From Burkholderiaceae bacterium (GTDB lineage: Bacteria > Pseudomonadota > Gammaproteobacteria > Burkholderiales > Burkholderiaceae), in the NCBI GenBank assembly GCA_017997515.1, contig JAGOEY010000077.1:1-7781 (forward strand): 7,781 nucleotides of DNA. The letters run 5' to 3'. Below the pieces are notes generated by a model that saw only the letters and a program-made list of their open reading frames with translations, ran no database searches and had not been told where the DNA came from. Both the position numbers and the translations under genes were made by a program. Positions 120-7,684 of the stretch are shown piece after piece; the stretch's first letter is position 1; the number at the start of each line of letters is the position of its first letter.

Positions 120-136
120 TGCACCTTGTTGGTGCG
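120..136. promoter_or_regulatory. NtrC-binding site (enhancer) upstream of the porin-glnK-amtB operon
   Basis: The 17-mer TGCACC-TTGTT-GGTGCG matches the NtrC (GlnG) palindrome TGCAC(C/T)-N5-(A/G)GTGCA at every conserved position except the last base. A further TGCACC half-site lies exactly 10 bp upstream (110-115), on the same helical face, so an NtrC oligomer could extend there. The centre (128) is about 107 bp upstream of the predicted sigma-54 start point (about 235), close to the spacing of the NtrC sites at enteric glnA. Site and spacing are seen in the sequence; regulation by NtrC is inferred and agrees with the nitrogen genes downstream. Confidence 0.8.
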
Positions 137-208: not shown

Positions 209-224
209 TGGCACGCTCCATGCA
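209..224 (+). promoter_or_regulatory. Sigma-54 (RpoN) -24/-12 promoter of the porin-glnK-amtB operon
   Basis: TGGCACG-CTCC-ATGCA matches the sigma-54 consensus TGGCACG-N4-TTGC(A/T) with one mismatch (A for the first T of the -12 box). The invariant GG (210-211) and GC (222-223) have the required 12-bp offset. Transcription would start near 235, leaving a 5' leader of about 29 nt with the Shine-Dalgarno at 253-258. With the NtrC-type site at 120-136 this forms a complete NtrC/sigma-54 nitrogen-limitation promoter. A second TTGGCAC copy just upstream (198-204) lacks a correctly spaced -12 box. Confidence 0.82.
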
Positions 225-1450: not shown

Positions 1451-3100
1451 ATGAAAAAACTACTTTCCATCATCACCTTTATCGCGCTGTCCATGACAGC
1501 GCAACTGGGCATGGCTGCGGACTTTCCGGAGTCCAAGCTGAACTTTGAACTGGGCAAGAGCGAACTGCCAGCCGAAGCGTCTGACGCAGTGGCCAAAGTG
1601 GCTGCCTTCCTCAAAGCCACAGCCGATGCCAAGGTGCAAGTTTCTGGTTACACCGACACGTCGGGTGATGCGGCACAAAACGCCGAGTTGGCCAAGAACC
1701 GCGCACAGGCCGTGAGCCAGGCGCTGACAGCCGCCGGTGTGCCCGCCGACAGCATCGTCATGAAGAAGCCCGAAGAAGTCGAAAAGGTCGGCAGCCCTGA
1801 AGCCGCCCGTGTGGTGGTGCTGTCGCTGGCCGTTGTGGCGCCCGCCGCAGATGCACCTGCAGCCGCTGCGCCCACGCTCAACTCGGGTGACACGGCCTGG
1901 ATGCTGACATCCACGCTGCTGGTGATCCTGATGACCATCCCCGGTCTGGCCTTGTTCTACGGTGGCCTGGGCCGCTCGAAGAACATGCTGTCCGTGCTGA
2001 TGCAGGTCTTCGTGATCTTCGCGCTGATCAGTGTGTTGTGGGCTGTGTATGGCTACTCGCTGACGTTCAGCGGTGAAGGCAGCTTCTACGGCGGCTTCGA
2101 CAAACTGTTCCTCGCCGGTATCACCCCTGACACGCTGTCCGGTCTTCTGCCCACCATCCCTGAATATGTGTTCGTCGCCTTCCAGGGCACGTTTGCTGCC
2201 ATCACCGTGGCACTGATCGTGGGCTCCTACGCCGAACGTATCCGTTTCTCCGCTGTGCTGCTGTTCTCGGTGATCTGGTTCACCTTCAGCTACCTGCCAA
2301 TCGCCCACATGGTGTGGGGTGGTGGTCTGCTGGCCAAGGACGGTGCACTCGACTTCGCGGGTGGCACGGTCGTGCACATCAACGCCGGTATCGCCGGTCT
2401 GGTGGGCTCCTATGTGATTGGCAAACGTATCGGTTTTGGCAAGGAAGCCATGACGCCGCATTCCCTGACCCTGACGATGGTTGGTGCCTCTTTGCTGTGG
2501 GTGGGCTGGTTCGGCTTCAACGCCGGCTCGGCAGGTGCTGCCAACGGTGTGGCCGGTCTGGCCTTCATCAACACGGTGCTGGCCACTGCTGCTGCCACCT
2601 TGTCGTGGATCGCTGCTGAAGGCCTGATCAAGGGCAAGGGCTCCATGCTGGGTGCTGCATCCGGTGCGGTGGCTGGCCTGGTGGCCATCACGCCCGCCGC
2701 TGGTTTCGTGGGCCCCATGGGTTCCATCGTGCTGGGCCTGATCGCTGGTGTGGCCGGTGTCTGGGGTGTGAGCAGCCTGAAGAAGATCCTGGGCGCTGAC
2801 GATGCATTCGACGTGTTCGGTGTGCACGGTGTCTGCGGCATCGTGGGTGCCGTCCTGACCGCCGTGTTTGCAGCCCCTGGCCTGGGTGGTACGGGTGGCC
2901 TGACCCCCGACACCTTCAACATGGCCAGCCAGGTCTGGATCCAGATCAAGAGCGTGTTGATCACCATCGGCTGGTCTGCTGTGGTGGCTTTCATCGCCTA
3001 CAAGATTGCCGATGTGGTGATTGGTCTGCGTGTGTCGGAAGAAGCCGAACGCGAAGGCCTGGACATCACGTCCCACGGCGAAACGGCTTACCACCGTTAA
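1451..3100 (+). CDS. amtB: Ammonium transporter AmtB with an extra N-terminal OmpA-like peptidoglycan-binding domain
   Basis: At 549 residues this is about 120 longer than E. coli AmtB (428). Residues 1-22/23 are a Sec signal peptide (MKKLLSIIT..., GMAA). Residues about 28-128 form an OmpA-like domain: KLNFELGKSEL, then VSGYTDTSG, N77, ELAKNRAQAV and a final VVVLSLAV strand. Asp69 and Arg84 are 15 apart, like the two residues that grip diaminopimelate in OmpA. An Ala/Pro-rich linker (about 129-142) leads to a full Amt core: F244 (outer gate), W289 and D301 (ammonium site), and the twin pore histidines H309 and H459. All spacings equal those of E. coli AmtB, and the C-terminal tail (EREGLDITSHGE) that GlnK contacts is kept. 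The Amt N-terminus faces the periplasm, so the added domain would too. Shine-Dalgarno GGAGGAA (1436-1442) is ideal. The core is certain; the tethering role is inference. Confidence 0.96.
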   Translation: MKKLLSIITFIALSMTAQLGMAADFPESKLNFELGKSELPAEASDAVAKVAAFLKATADAKVQVSGYTDTSGDAAQNAELAKNRAQAVSQALTAAGVPADSIVMKKPEEVEKVGSPEAARVVVLSLAVVAPAADAPAAAAPTLNSGDTAWMLTSTLLVILMTIPGLALFYGGLGRSKNMLSVLMQVFVIFALISVLWAVYGYSLTFSGEGSFYGGFDKLFLAGITPDTLSGLLPTIPEYVFVAFQGTFAAITVALIVGSYAERIRFSAVLLFSVIWFTFSYLPIAHMVWGGGLLAKDGALDFAGGTVVHINAGIAGLVGSYVIGKRIGFGKEAMTPHSLTLTMVGASLLWVGWFGFNAGSAGAANGVAGLAFINTVLATAAATLSWIAAEGLIKGKGSMLGAASGAVAGLVAITPAAGFVGPMGSIVLGLIAGVAGVWGVSSLKKILGADDAFDVFGVHGVCGIVGAVLTAVFAAPGLGGTGGLTPDTFNMASQVWIQIKSVLITIGWSAVVAFIAYKIADVVIGLRVSEEAEREGLDITSHGETAYHR

Positions 3101-3270: not shown

Positions 3271-4203
3271 ATGGCATGGCAAACCGTTGTGGGGCAACCC
3301 AGCCAGTTGGGCGAATCGCCGTTCTGGCATCCCGGTGAGCAGCAGCTGTACTGGGTGGATATTCCCGGGCGGAAAATCCTGCGGGTGCGCCCAGCAAGCG
3401 GGGCGGTGGATGAGTGGCCGCTGCCGCAGGATCCCGGCTGTATCGCCCCGGCACTCGGCGGCGGCTTGGTCATTGCCCTGCGCGACGGCATCTACCGCGC
3501 CCACACCTGGGGCGGGCCGCTGGTGCAGCTGGCCGCCGCCACCCACGACCCTGCAACCACCCGCTTCAACGACGGCAAATGTGACGCACTGGGCCGCTTG
3601 TGGGCAGGCACCATCTACGAGCCGCGTAACGCGCAGCGGGCGGGCCTGTACTGCCTGGACGCGCGCGGCACCAGTGGCGATGCCCCGCCCACGTTGCAGC
3701 ACAAACTCGGGGACGCCACCACCGCCAACGGTCTGGCCTGGTCACCCGACGGGCGCACCCTGTACTGGTCGGACACGCCCCGGCATGTGACCCACGCCTG
3801 GGACTTTGATGCCGCCACGGGGGCATTGCAGAACCAGCGGGTGTTCCAGCAGTTCGCGCCCAAACCCGCAGACTGGACGCCCGGCGCGCCAGGCGCATCG
3901 GGGTATGGCGGCCGCCCTGACGGTGCGGCGGTGGATGTGGACGGCAACTACTACTGCGCCATGTTTGAAGGCGGGCGGCTGCTGAAGTTTGCCCCCACCG
4001 GTGCGCTGCTGGCCGACATCCCAACACCTGTGCGCTGCCCGACCATGCCGTGTTTTGGGGGAGACGACCTGCGCACCCTCTACCTCACCAGCGTCCGCGC
4101 GGGCCGCCCCGCGGCCGAGTTGGCGGCAATGCCAGCGTCGGGTTGTGTATTCGCCATGCGGGTGGAGACGCCCGGCTTACCCGTTAATTTTTTCCTGGAT
4201 TGA
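3271..4203 (+). CDS. SMP-30/gluconolactonase-family lactonase (six-bladed beta-propeller)
   Basis: A 310-residue cytosolic protein of the usual family length. The metal-site residues known from SMP-30/gluconolactonase are visible: Glu15 in LGESPFWHP, Asn100 in RFNDGKCDALGRLWAGT, Asn153 in ANGLAWSPDGRTLYWSDT, and Asp217 in GYGGRPDGAAVDVDGNYY. These bind one divalent cation that activates a sugar-acid lactone for hydrolysis, for example gluconolactone or another aldonolactone in an oxidative sugar pathway. The substrate cannot be told from sequence. The start at 3271 is chosen because AGAGGAG (3258-3264) is 6 nt upstream and the protein opens in family style. An upstream in-frame TTG (3142) would run through the terminator and adds unrelated residues. 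The gene is 81 nt ahead of glcE on the same strand and may be co-transcribed. No dehydrogenase partner is visible. Confidence 0.92.
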   Translation: MAWQTVVGQPSQLGESPFWHPGEQQLYWVDIPGRKILRVRPASGAVDEWPLPQDPGCIAPALGGGLVIALRDGIYRAHTWGGPLVQLAAATHDPATTRFNDGKCDALGRLWAGTIYEPRNAQRAGLYCLDARGTSGDAPPTLQHKLGDATTANGLAWSPDGRTLYWSDTPRHVTHAWDFDAATGALQNQRVFQQFAPKPADWTPGAPGASGYGGRPDGAAVDVDGNYYCAMFEGGRLLKFAPTGALLADIPTPVRCPTMPCFGGDDLRTLYLTSVRAGRPAAELAAMPASGCVFAMRVETPGLPVNFFLD

Positions 4204-4284
4204 TGGCGCAGCGTTTTCGCTCACACCCGCTGTTCAAAAAAATCACGGCGTGGCCGGGGCTGGGGCCGCCACCAAGGTACTACG

Positions 4285-5400
4285 ATGCACACCATGGACT
4301 CCGCCCTGCAAACCCTCGCCGACCACATCCGCCACGCCGCCGCCCATGGCACGCCGCTGCGCATCCGGGGTGGCGGCACCAAGGACTTTTATGGCGAGCC
4401 GCCGCAAGGTGAGGTGCTCGACACCACCACCTGGAGCGGCATCACCGACTACGAGCCCAGTGAGCTGGTGGTCACCGTGCGCAGTGGCACCCCACTGGCC
4501 GTGCTGGAAGACACCCTGGCCCAACAAGGCCAGTGCCTCGCGTTTGAGCCGCCGCGTTATGCCCCGGGTGGCACCGTGGGTGGCATGGTCGCTGCGGGGC
4601 TGAGTGGCCCGGCCCGCGCCCATGTGGGTGCCGTGCGCGACTTTGTGCTGGGTGTGACACTGCTCAACGGCCGAGGTGAGCTGCTGACCTTTGGTGGCCA
4701 GGTCATGAAAAACGTGGCCGGTTACGACGTCTCGCGGCTGATGGCCGGTGCGCTGGGCACGCTGGGTGTGTTGACCGACATCAGCCTGAAGGTGCTGCCG
4801 TTTGCGCCAGCCGAGGCCACACTGCGTTTTGGCATGGACCAGGCCACGGCCTTGCAGCAGCTGCACCGCTGGGGTGGGTTGCCTTTGCCGCTCAACGCCA
4901 GTTGCTGGGTCAGCGACAACGGGGTGGACACGCTGTACGTGCGCCTGCGCGGCGCGGTGGCCGCAGTGGACGCCGCCTGCCGCCAGATGGGCGGTGAGCG
5001 CCTGGACAACCCGCAGGTAGCGGCTGACTGGCAGGCCTGCCGCGACCACCAGCTGCCCTGGTTCAAAGCCCGCGCCGGGCGGGCCTTGTGGCGGCTTTCC
5101 GTGCCACAGACCGCACCGGTGCTGGATCTGCCCACCACGCCCCTGGTCGAGTGGCAGGGCGCACAGCGCTGGGTGATGGTGGACGCAGGCGACGCCGCTG
5201 CCGCAGGCCACCTGCGCCGCACCGCTGCGGCGGTGGGGGGTAGTGCTTCACTTTTCATAGCTGCTCCCGCAGATGGGTTGGGCGCTACAGGTCGATTTGA
5301 TACATTGTCTGCGCCCTTGGAGCAAATCCACCGGGCGCTCAAACGTGAATTTGATCCGGCGGGCATCCTGAACCCCGGTCGGCTCTACCCGGGCTGGTAA
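4285..5400 (+). CDS. glcE: Glycolate oxidase FAD-binding subunit GlcE
   Basis: A 371-residue flavoprotein subunit (E. coli GlcE is about 350). An FAD-binding PCMH-type domain fills the first half: LRIRGGGTKDFYG (25-37), then PPRYAPGGTVGGMVAAGLSG (89-108), GAVRDFVLGVTLLNGRGE (115-132) and the GlcE hallmark GQVMKNVAGYDVSRLMAG (138-155). The C-terminus ends FDPAGILNPGRLYPG, common to this oxidase family. GlcD, GlcE and GlcF together oxidise glycolate to glyoxylate and pass electrons to the membrane. The start at 4285 has AAGG (4274-4277) 7 nt upstream; Met4 (4294) is an alternative. Residues about 320-342 are encoded by a stretch with odd codon use (AGT, TCA, ATA, ACA, CGA) that looks like an absorbed repeat. 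The stop codon overlaps the ribosome-binding site of the next gene, which suggests coupled translation. Confidence 0.95.
   Translation: MHTMDSALQTLADHIRHAAAHGTPLRIRGGGTKDFYGEPPQGEVLDTTTWSGITDYEPSELVVTVRSGTPLAVLEDTLAQQGQCLAFEPPRYAPGGTVGGMVAAGLSGPARAHVGAVRDFVLGVTLLNGRGELLTFGGQVMKNVAGYDVSRLMAGALGTLGVLTDISLKVLPFAPAEATLRFGMDQATALQQLHRWGGLPLPLNASCWVSDNGVDTLYVRLRGAVAAVDAACRQMGGERLDNPQVAADWQACRDHQLPWFKARAGRALWRLSVPQTAPVLDLPTTPLVEWQGAQRWVMVDAGDAAAAGHLRRTAAAVGGSASLFIAAPADGLGATGRFDTLSAPLEQIHRALKREFDPAGILNPGRLYPGW
5242..5306. repeat. Candidate interspersed repeat of Comamonadaceae type, embedded in frame in glcE
   Basis: The stretch around ATAGCTGCTCCCGCAGATGG (5257-5276) and GGGCGCTACAGG (5280-5291), ending ATTTGATACAT, strongly resembles a short element I recall as abundant between genes in Acidovorax, Polaromonas and Rhodoferax genomes. 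It holds an imperfect inverted repeat (TAGC...CCC / GGG...GCTA). Codons across it (AGT, GCT, TCA, ATA, ACA, CGA, TTT, GAT) are A/T-ending, while the flanks are almost all G/C-ending. It stays in frame and encodes roughly residues 320-341 of GlcE. No second copy is in the window, so the repeat status rests on memory and composition. Confidence 0.6.
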
Positions 5401-5409
5401 GGCATCCAC

Positions 5410-6243
5410 ATGCGGCGACTGCGCTTTCTCACAGGCCGGCACCGCTCGCCGTCCACCAACACCACCCTCGGCCTGCTGCTGGCGTTTAACGCCGGGGCGG
5501 TGAACGCGGGCGGGTTTCTGGTGCTGCACATGTACACGTCGCACATGACGGGTTTCGCCTCCCAGGTGGCGGACGGCCTGGTGCTGGGCAACCTGACGCT
5601 GCTGCTCAACGCGTTGGGGGCGTTGCTGGCATTTATCTGTGGCGCGGCGGTGTCCGCCATGCTCATCAACTGGGGGCAGCAGTACCAGCTGCGCAGTGTG
5701 TATGCGCTGCCCCTGCTGATCGAGTCCGCACTCATGCTGGTCTTCGGGTTGATGGGGGCCATCACTCTGACCTGGCACACCCCGTTTGCCCTGCCCCTTA
5801 CCGTGCTGCTGCTGTCCTTCATCATGGGCCTGCAAAACGCGGTGGGCACCAAAAGTTCAGGCGGCAAAATCCGCACCACCCACATGACCGGCAACATCAC
5901 CGACCTGGGCATCGAGCTGGGCAAGATGCTGTACTGGAACCGCCGTGGCACACCCGTGGCCGCGCTGGTGCGCCACAGCCGCGAACGGCTCTGGCTCTTC
6001 ACCGGCCTGGTGGGGATGTTCATCCTCGGGGGGCTGATGGGGGCGGCCGGTTTCAGCTACGTCGGCTTCATCTGTGTGGTGCCGCTGGCCGCGCTGCTGC
6101 TGGCGCTGTCTTTGCCCCCGTTCCTGGAAGATGTGCAGCGCTCCGCCCATCTGCGGCAACTGCTGCGTGCCATTGCCGAACGTCTGCACCTGCGCCGCCG
6201 CCGCACACAGCCCGAAGACGGTGCACCTCCCCGCGACGACTGA
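5410..6243 (+). CDS. DUF1275/YoaK-family integral membrane protein
   Basis: A 277-residue membrane protein with about six hydrophobic segments (roughly 17-42, 58-85, 97-120, 125-145, 196-212, 214-236). Family motifs are visible: [11 protein letters not shown] (26-36), a first SHMTGF (44-49), GLQNAVG (140-146) and [13 protein letters not shown] (155-167). The two HMTG motifs suggest an internal duplication. The C-terminus (about 240-277) is an arginine-rich then acidic cytosolic tail. The biochemical function of DUF1275 is not established; transport is a guess often made for it. The ATG at 5410 is 9 nt after the glcE stop, with AAGG at 5399-5402 overlapping that stop, so translation is probably coupled to glcE. 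It sits between two subunits of one enzyme, so a link to glycolate oxidase (substrate entry or membrane anchoring) is worth considering but unproven. Confidence 0.9.
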
Positions 6244-6268: not shown

Positions 6269-7498
6269 ATGCAAACCCAACTCGCCCCCGAATTCCAGGG
6301 CACCCCCGACGGTGCCGAGGCCGAAGCCATCCTGCGCAAATGTGTGCACTGCGGCTTCTGCACCGCCACCTGCCCGACCTACCAGCTGCTGGGCAACGAG
6401 CTGGACGGCCCGCGCGGCCGCATCTACCTGATCAAGCAGGTGCTGGAAGGGGCCACGCCCACCCGCGCCACCCAGATGCACTTGGACCGCTGCCTGACCT
6501 GCCGCAACTGCGAAAGCACCTGCCCCAGCGGCGTGCAGTACGGCCATCTGGTGGACATTGGTCGCAAGATCGTGGATGAGAAAGTGCCGCGTGGTCTGGG
6601 CGAACGCGCTGTGCGCTGGGCGCTGAAAGAAGGCCTGCCGTCACCGCTGTTTGGCCCCGCCATGAAGCTCGGCCAGGCGGTGCGCGGTGTGTTGCCCGCG
6701 TCACTCCAGGCCAAGGTGCCAGCGCCCCAGGCGGCAGGCCAGTGGCCCACCCGCAGCCACACCCGCAAAGTGCTGATGCTCGAAGGCTGCGTGCAGCCCG
6801 CGATGATGCCCAACATCAACAGCGCCACGGCGCGGGTGCTGGACGCCATCGGGATTGAGGCCGTGCGCCTGCCAAAAACCGGTTGCTGCGGCGCGGTGAA
6901 GTTCCACCTGAACGACCAGGACGGTGGCCGCGCCGAAATGCGCGCCAACATCGACGCCTGGTGGCCGCTGGCTTCGACGGGTGGAGTCGAGGCCATCATG
7001 GTCAATGCATCGGGGTGTGGTGTCACCGTGAAGGAATACGGCCATCTGCTCAAGGACGACCCGGCCTACGCCGACAAGGCCGCCCACATCAGCGCCCTGG
7101 CGCGCGACCTGAGTGAATGGCTGCCCGAGCTGGCCACCGCGTTGCAAGGCCGTGTCAGCCCGCCCGCAGGCATGCTGGCCTTTCACCCACCGTGCACGCT
7201 GCAGCACGGGCAGCAGTTACGTGGCGGCGTCGAGGCCCATCTGGGTGCACTCGGCTTCCAGGTGCAGGTGGCACGCACCGAGTCCCATCTGTGCTGTGGC
7301 TCGGCCGGTACCTATTCGGTATTGCAGCCCGAACTGGCCTACCCGCTGCGTGACCGCAAACTCGGCCACTTGCAGGCGCTGGTCCCCGAGGCCATTTTGT
7401 CGGCCAACATCGGCTGTATCACCCACCTGCAAAGTGGCACCGCAACACCCGTCAAACATTGGGTCGAAGTGCTGGATGCCGCTTTGTTGCCGAATTAA
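6269..7498 (+). CDS. glcF: Glycolate oxidase iron-sulfur subunit GlcF
   Basis: A 409-residue protein (E. coli GlcF is 407). Two 4Fe-4S motifs are intact: C25-V-H-C28-G-F-C31-T-A-T-C35-P and C75-L-T-C78-R-N-C81-E-S-T-C85-P. The C-terminal half has two CCG domains: [11 protein letters not shown] with [12 protein letters not shown] (C206, C207), and FHPPCTLQH (C309) with CCGSAGTYS (C342, C343), typical of heterodisulfide-reductase-like subunits. GlcF takes electrons from the GlcD/GlcE flavins towards the respiratory chain. The ATG at 6269 is chosen because the protein opens in family style ([15 protein letters not shown]). The long upstream in-frame extension overlaps the membrane-protein gene and is not GlcF-like. 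No good Shine-Dalgarno precedes the start; instead a run of nine A (6249-6257) lies in the 25-nt gap. Confidence 0.95.
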
Positions 7499-7667: not shown

Positions 7668-7684
7668 TGCAGCCTATTGGTGCA
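7668..7684. promoter_or_regulatory. Possible second NtrC-like site
   Basis: TGCAGC-CTATT-GGTGCA fits the same 17-bp NtrC architecture as the site at 120-136, with one mismatch in the left arm and a perfect right arm. A further GGTGCA half-site lies at 7704-7709. The only sigma-54-like sequence close by (TGGCCAG-TTTG-GTGCA, 7694-7709) keeps GG and GC at the right distance but mismatches elsewhere, and lies too near for a normal enhancer. The site may act on a gene outside the window or be chance. Confidence 0.35.

Follow-up and report, generated by a model that had tools for sequence, protein, structure and literature searches.

AmtB-type ammonium channels and the OmpA-like domains of OmpA, Pal and MotB are each already known, and OmpA-like domains have been described on inner-membrane machines as well. 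Here, we analyse a gene that joins an OmpA-like domain to an ammonium transporter (Amt). It lies at 1451–3100 on the + strand of a 7,781-nucleotide contig from a Burkholderiaceae bacterium (GenBank assembly GCA_017997515.1, contig JAGOEY010000077.1), the whole of which is called the window. From its sequence, the product is probably an AmtB-like ammonium channel with a peptidoglycan-binding OmpA-like module on the periplasmic N-terminus, that is, a wall-tethered Amt.

The entire core of the protein aligns with AmtB (PF00909; chain 2nuu_A, which we take to be E. coli AmtB), its pore residues and C-terminal tail are kept and glnK lies upstream. The difference is a 105-residue OmpA-like module between the signal peptide and the first helix. 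The module shares the predicted fold and the D/N/R contacts with the OmpA/Pal/MotB domains (PF00691; 3TD5, 2AIZ and PorE), but it is a distinct subfamily without the classical tail motif and occurs on energy and transport proteins of the inner membrane. TagL of the type VI secretion system also has an OmpA-like domain that anchors an inner-membrane machine to the wall, but it is an accessory protein of a secretion machine in the passages of PMC8253398, whereas the domain here is part of the channel chain. To such MotB- or TagL-type wall-anchored machines, the window protein can be likened by its proposed working only.

Membrane pyrophosphatases of Paucibacter with a C-terminal OmpA-like domain were reported in 2024, and the role of that domain is given as to be elucidated in the passages concerned (PMC11210485). 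These are ion-pumping proteins of the inner membrane, likewise from Burkholderiales and likewise with an OmpA-like domain, but the host is another and the domain is at the other end, and the three passages naming OmpA do so without Amt or oxidases. The pyrophosphatase matches found here carry the present module subfamily, the Paucibacter domain's own sequence being outside the comparison. An OmpA-like stretch at 755–831 of the photosystem I PsaB chain 7f4v_aB, presumably from Gloeobacter, is likewise on an energy-converting membrane complex, but it scores only 40 bits against the module profile and the host is unrelated.

The initial annotation, made from the letters of the window, had described an uninterrupted frame with an OmpA-like domain and a complete Amt core, and the profile scans agree. 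The single open frame has 549 codons from its ATG start, and Pfam places OmpA (PF00691) at residues 32–104 with 60.5 bits (cut-off 27.2) and Ammonium_transp (PF00909) at residues 149–547 with 405.1 bits (cut-off 23.2). The Amt core, residues 147–549 with the stop codon (1889–3100, +), matches TIGR00836 of NCBIfam with 445.1 bits (cut-off 343.3). F244, W289, D301, H309 and H459, which we take to be pore residues as the annotation did, all align with identical residues in 2nuu_A, and the C-terminal tail EREGLDITSHGETAY closely resembles that of the same chain. Because the match to the NCBIfam AmtB equivalog PRK10666.1 has 601.9 bits, below its 657-bit threshold, the transporter is filed as an AmtB-like Amt-family protein and not as the AmtB equivalog.

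Ahead of the core on the + strand are the signal peptide MKKLLSIITFIALSMTAQLGMA (residues 1–22, 1451–1516), the OmpA-like module (residues 24–128, 1520–1834) and an Ala/Pro-rich linker (residues 129–146, 1835–1888). The signal peptide has a KK start and the small residues G-M-A ahead of the likely cut, which is placed after GMA by eye. Together with the AmtB-like C-terminal tail, it supports the periplasmic side formerly assigned to the domain, and other fused Amts also have a signal peptide ahead of the module.

The identity of the domain has stood as well. An AF2 model made with a 54-row alignment (the window and 53 representatives of 89 extracted modules) has a pLDDT of 81.7, superseding an alignment-free model of 68.7, and its predicted beta-alpha-beta-alpha-beta-beta fold is matched to OmpA/Pal structures by both Foldseek and VIA-align. 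D69 (1655–1657, +) and R84 (1700–1702, +) had been singled out for the 15-residue spacing of the diaminopimelate-binding pair, and this is the spacing of D271 and R286 that bind diaminopimelate in A. baumannii OmpA, by the passages of PMC6572160 on them. The same two positions are D576 and R591 in PorE, where N584 corresponds to N77 (1679–1681, +). All three diaminopimelate-contact positions at D, D+8 and D+15 are thus kept, the third being an addition to the earlier pair.

All three contact residues are retained except in three distinct modules, and strong conservation is found also outside them at E79, K82, K106-P107 and R120. The signature is SGxxDxxGxxxxNAELAKxRA ... KP ... ARRVE. The module carries KVGSPEAARVVVL where we would expect the classical OmpA/Pal C-terminal motif, presumably NxxxxGRxxNRRVE, and keeps only R120 of its Arg residues. 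It is this lack of the classical motif for which the module is filed as a separate OmpA subfamily. By sequence, such a subfamily with several other hosts is new here.

Amt is not the only protein with this domain and appears in these comparisons as one host of a mobile module. Using residues 22–146 as the query, we found 210 proteins, and the best 120 were 97 OmpA+Amt fusions, 11 DUF2853, 4 COX2, 4 CcoP and 3 H+-pyrophosphatase proteins and 1 DUF937/YidB-like protein. P0015 and P0025, 549-residue proteins 99–100% identical over the module, represent 313 and 333 contigs. Because of these contigs and the 97 fusions among the best 120 of 210 matches, chance or an assembly artefact was rejected as the origin of the fusion.

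Over all searches, the hosts are H+-pyrophosphatase, COX2, CcoO, CcoP, reaction-centre cytochrome, cytochrome c, RND adaptor, YidB, DUF2853 and single-helix proteins. Hosts were labelled by BLAST to a few references, and the label of single-helix or solo proteins means the lack of such a BLAST match. For L131 (a pyrophosphatase following a run of N), L155, L159, L022, L095, L173 and L185, the label was assigned by reading, and five host families so labelled were confirmed by Pfam on L155, L159, L022 and L095. In all, Pfam on ten representatives gave CytoC_RC (2), Cytochrome_CBB3-type cytochrome c (2), FixO, HlyD_D23, FixP_N, YidB, H_PPase and COX2. Elsewhere, Ala/Pro-rich stretches tie the module to the C-ends of other proteins.

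Some of these hosts have particular arrangements. The module is lodged between two cytochrome c haem domains of a single protein at L022:3077–4588. It is C-terminal on the reaction-centre cytochrome subunit in L046 and L170 and, by similarity, in L146, L169, L184 and L186. It is C-terminal and more divergent on the RND-type periplasmic adaptors of L095, L173 and L185, the Pfam scan being on L095.

The single-helix module proteins (e.g. L028 at about 3800–4294, and L114) have about 150–200 residues, with a DDD-rich start, one helix, an Ala/Pro linker and the module. Their starts are acidic, with a mean net charge of −2.5. No conserved operon partner was seen by eye in 19 of their loci, and neighbours are common only to close kin such as L025/L030, L028/L077 and L073/L080.

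In the tabulated fused Amts, the module stands between the signal peptide and a linker of 12–48 residues before GDTAW. Unfused relatives mostly have the signal peptide, then an Ala/Pro-rich tail and then the first helix. The initial annotation held that a classical AmtB has only a signal peptide before the first helix; this is nearly so in L211, L227 and P0125, which have almost no Ala/Pro tail, but not in most of the unfused relatives here. Most simply, the module would have been inserted into a pre-existing periplasmic tail of Amt.

As to the working, the signal peptide would direct the N-terminus into the periplasm as in AmtB, and after its cleavage the module would remain joined via the Ala/Pro linker. 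The module may then bind the stem peptides of the sacculus, and each trimer could be tethered by up to three wall contacts. Transport through the channel and its block by GlnK would be unchanged from AmtB. The gain would be position, with less drift and perhaps closeness to other fixed machines. These results lend no support to the wall-stress sensing raised in the initial annotation. A fully stretched 20-residue linker reaches about 7 nm by rough arithmetic.

The module was traced in genome samples that overlap and are all centred on Ottowia thiooxydans (G002), which was chosen and is in every sample. Eleven whole genomes separate module matches above 91 bits from other OmpA-like matches of at most 66 bits, and larger samples contain a few matches of 69–76 bits in between. 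In the 60-genome sample of the GTDB family, a match at E ≤ 1e-18 is present in 31 genomes and reaches at least 90 bits in 30. The 63 matches in these genomes comprise 27 single-helix proteins, 13 pyrophosphatases (one of which was labelled by eye), 5 Amt, 5 YidB-like proteins, 3 reaction-centre cytochromes, 2 COX2, 2 CcoP, 1 CcoO, 1 cytochrome c, 1 RND adaptor and 3 matches of 70–75 bits counted apart as classical-like.

A match is present in at least 103 of 200 genomes in the larger family sample (4 only weak, with best E of 1e-20 to 1e-18), at least 21 of 150 in the order sample (2 of them weak) and, at E ≤ 1e-22, at least 15 of 398 in the phylum sample. These are lower bounds with at most 24, 32 and 12 candidates scored per genome, respectively. 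Searching GTDB species genomes for a single peptide pattern gave at least 480 relatives, and the best 80 of them are mostly from Burkholderiales but also from Neisseriaceae, Uliginosibacterium, Azonexus, Dechloromonas, Lysobacter and Erythrobacter.

The fused Amt itself is patchy, found in 5 of the 60 family genomes including the chosen centre. The 200-genome sample has at least eight (G001, G002, G030, G046, G056, G069, G238 and G326). Amt is present in 135 of the 150 genomes of the order sample, and among the matches listed the module and Amt are side by side only in G002.

The history of the cores was examined with the Amt core as the query (8000 candidates scored). The best 120 matches are 39 fused rows of the window's group and then 81 unfused rows, those named being from Acidovorax, Paracidovorax and Simplicispira with 85–90% identity. 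A core tree by a quick method has 68 representatives of 190 cores, 28 fused and 40 unfused, and shows 13 label changes, at least 10 forced by well-supported branches. It excludes 12 loci without a GDTAW-type motif, including the single fused locus L003/L117, and the L190 and L201 cores are outside the extracted set.

The module tree, with 136 representatives of 283 modules, excludes duplicate loci and matches below 85 bits, and many of its forks are without resolution because the columns are few. One clade (SH-aLRT 95) holds 29 of the 32 Amt modules. The remaining three (P0090, P0095 and P0119) are near pyrophosphatase modules, which suggests but does not force a second capture of the module by Amt. 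In G016, the pyrophosphatase and cytochrome c modules are 83% identical, suggesting copying within one genome.

Since the cores are intermingled yet most Amt modules are one clade, the N-terminus appears to have been exchanged or repeatedly lost. P0040 is 91% identical to the window protein in the module but only 71% in the core. Holding the window, P0011, P0040 and P0043 together was rejected on cores (p-AU 1.9e-88; 30 rows) and holding all short-core fused Amts together was weakly rejected on modules (p-AU 0.039; 105 columns, 30 rows), these values being not strict because the groups were chosen after the identities were known. N-terminal exchange between Amt genes or many losses, perhaps both, may explain the patterns.

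Purifying selection on the module is supported. Nonsynonymous divergence (dN) is below synonymous divergence (dS) in the module in all nine fused-gene pairs by the Nei-Gojobori method, with a dN/dS ratio (omega) of 0.13–0.62. The core omega in the same pairs is 0.09–0.33, some dS values being near saturation.

Several observations weigh against the wall tether. The module end is unlike classical OmpA/Pal, its tail motif being replaced by KPEEVEKVGSPEAARVVVL, and the PF00691 match covers profile positions 2–76 of 98. Ser replaces D69 in three distinct modules, all on reaction-centre cytochromes (L146, L169 and L170). Divergence is faster in the module than in the core, with the module's omega the higher in eight of the nine pairs and the lower in L001/L003, and the module is dispensable for Amt because fused and unfused cores intermingle. 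Linkers of 12–48 residues may limit the reach. Finally, Lys/Arg are more numerous after the helix than before it in 39 of 50 distinct single-helix proteins (equal in 7, fewer in 4), recounted from 55 rows with repeats of which 43 had more after. By the positive-inside rule for the orientation of membrane helices, this pattern predicts a cytoplasmic module, where there is no wall, and if this is true, the module has another role there unless the rule breaks down.

An unlikely alternative is that the module is a protein-protein docking domain, by which Amt, H+-pyrophosphatase, oxidases and single-helix proteins pair together or with a common partner and cluster their complexes, wall binding being weak or secondary. 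In all five fused-Amt genomes of the 60-genome sample, the module is also present on a pyrophosphatase and on a single-helix protein, and fused pyrophosphatases occur in 13 of the 60. This co-occurrence agrees with a common scaffold no less than with a common wall, but kinship confounds it and the five genomes include the chosen centre. The conserved residues outside the contacts and structure titles for TolB/Pal and YfiB-YfiR, with OmpA-like domains complexed with proteins, also speak for docking, whereas the near-constant diaminopimelate contacts speak against it.

The patchy label on the core tree and the disagreement of module and core histories would fit a passive passenger, a mobile and harmless N-terminal segment kept by amtB recombination without a function of its own. 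We consider this improbable in view of dN < dS in every pair, the almost invariant contact residues and the related modules on many unrelated hosts. Still less credible is a periplasmic cleavage that frees the module as a wall-binding protein and leaves a normal AmtB behind. A protease might cut the Ala/Pro linker, but no second cleavage signal was seen by eye in the protein, and the C-terminal attachments of the same module by Ala/Pro-rich stretches give no reason for release.

The wall-tethered Amt is best read as one instance of a module that binds the wall and has been passed between energy-handling membrane proteins. Because the subfamily is joined to several other such proteins of the inner membrane, its job is probably generic, holding membrane machines under the wall, and not ammonium-specific. 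A broader and more speculative proposal, about which we are rather doubtful, is that a dedicated wall-binding module circulates within Burkholderiales genomes and is grafted onto the periplasm-facing end of energy-converting or ion-moving inner-membrane proteins, here the ammonium channel, H+-pyrophosphatase, haem-copper oxidases and a photosynthetic cytochrome. In this way the sacculus would hold bioenergetic machines in stationary patches, and tethered and free channel versions would be swapped via the N-terminus alone.

In the open-access literature, judged by titles and abstract starts with subscription papers and preprints outside the search, we found no paper on an OmpA-Amt fusion and only PMC11210485 on an OmpA-like domain with another host. 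What is new is the host range of the subfamily, the insertion between signal peptide and tail and the intermingled history, each half of the fusion being already known. For the pyrophosphatase puzzle in the passages of PMC11210485, the shared module offers one testable hypothesis, and it carries the question over to respiration, photosynthesis and nitrogen uptake. Should the module turn out to bind the wall, nature has provided an experiment on whether immobilising a transporter or oxidase in the membrane matters. The module is the main difference between close relatives, the window core being 90% identical to the unfused P0121.

The genes of the window are all on the + strand. A TorF-family putative porin gene (264–1010; TIGR02001, 122.6 bits, cut-off 47.15) and glnK (P-II; 1092–1430) precede the fusion gene, glnK ending 20 bases 5′ of it. 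By Pfam and NCBIfam profile scans, an SMP-30/gluconolactonase-like gene (3271–4203), glcE (4285–5400), a DUF1275 gene (5410–6243) and glcF (6269–7498) follow. The DUF1275 membrane protein gene thus sits between glcE and glcF.

Among seven distinct fused loci, glnK adjoins the fused amt in all and a TorF-type porin in six. The porin-glnK neighbourhood was rejected as a fusion-specific partner because 20 of 20 hand-picked unfused loci have glnK 5′ of amt and 14 of 20 have the porin, some contigs ending nearby. The GlnK of L001 is 96% identical, and the idea that glnK is part of the swapped segment was dropped because most unfused relatives of the window core also have a GlnK of 90–97% identity.

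Upstream of the porin, the window has a tentative NtrC-like palindrome at 120–136 (+) and a tentative sigma-54-like −24/−12 site at 209–224 (+), each with one mismatch to motifs that we assume for these factors. Such candidate sites 5′ of the porin-glnK-amt cluster would fit nitrogen control, as expected. The sigma-54-like pattern, as a whole not enriched, occurs 3 times in the window against 3.4 expected and may be due to chance. The NtrC-like pattern gives 5 rows against 0.9 expected, two pairs of these rows being one palindrome read on both strands. A second NtrC-like palindrome, again with one mismatch, is near the window end at 7668–7684.
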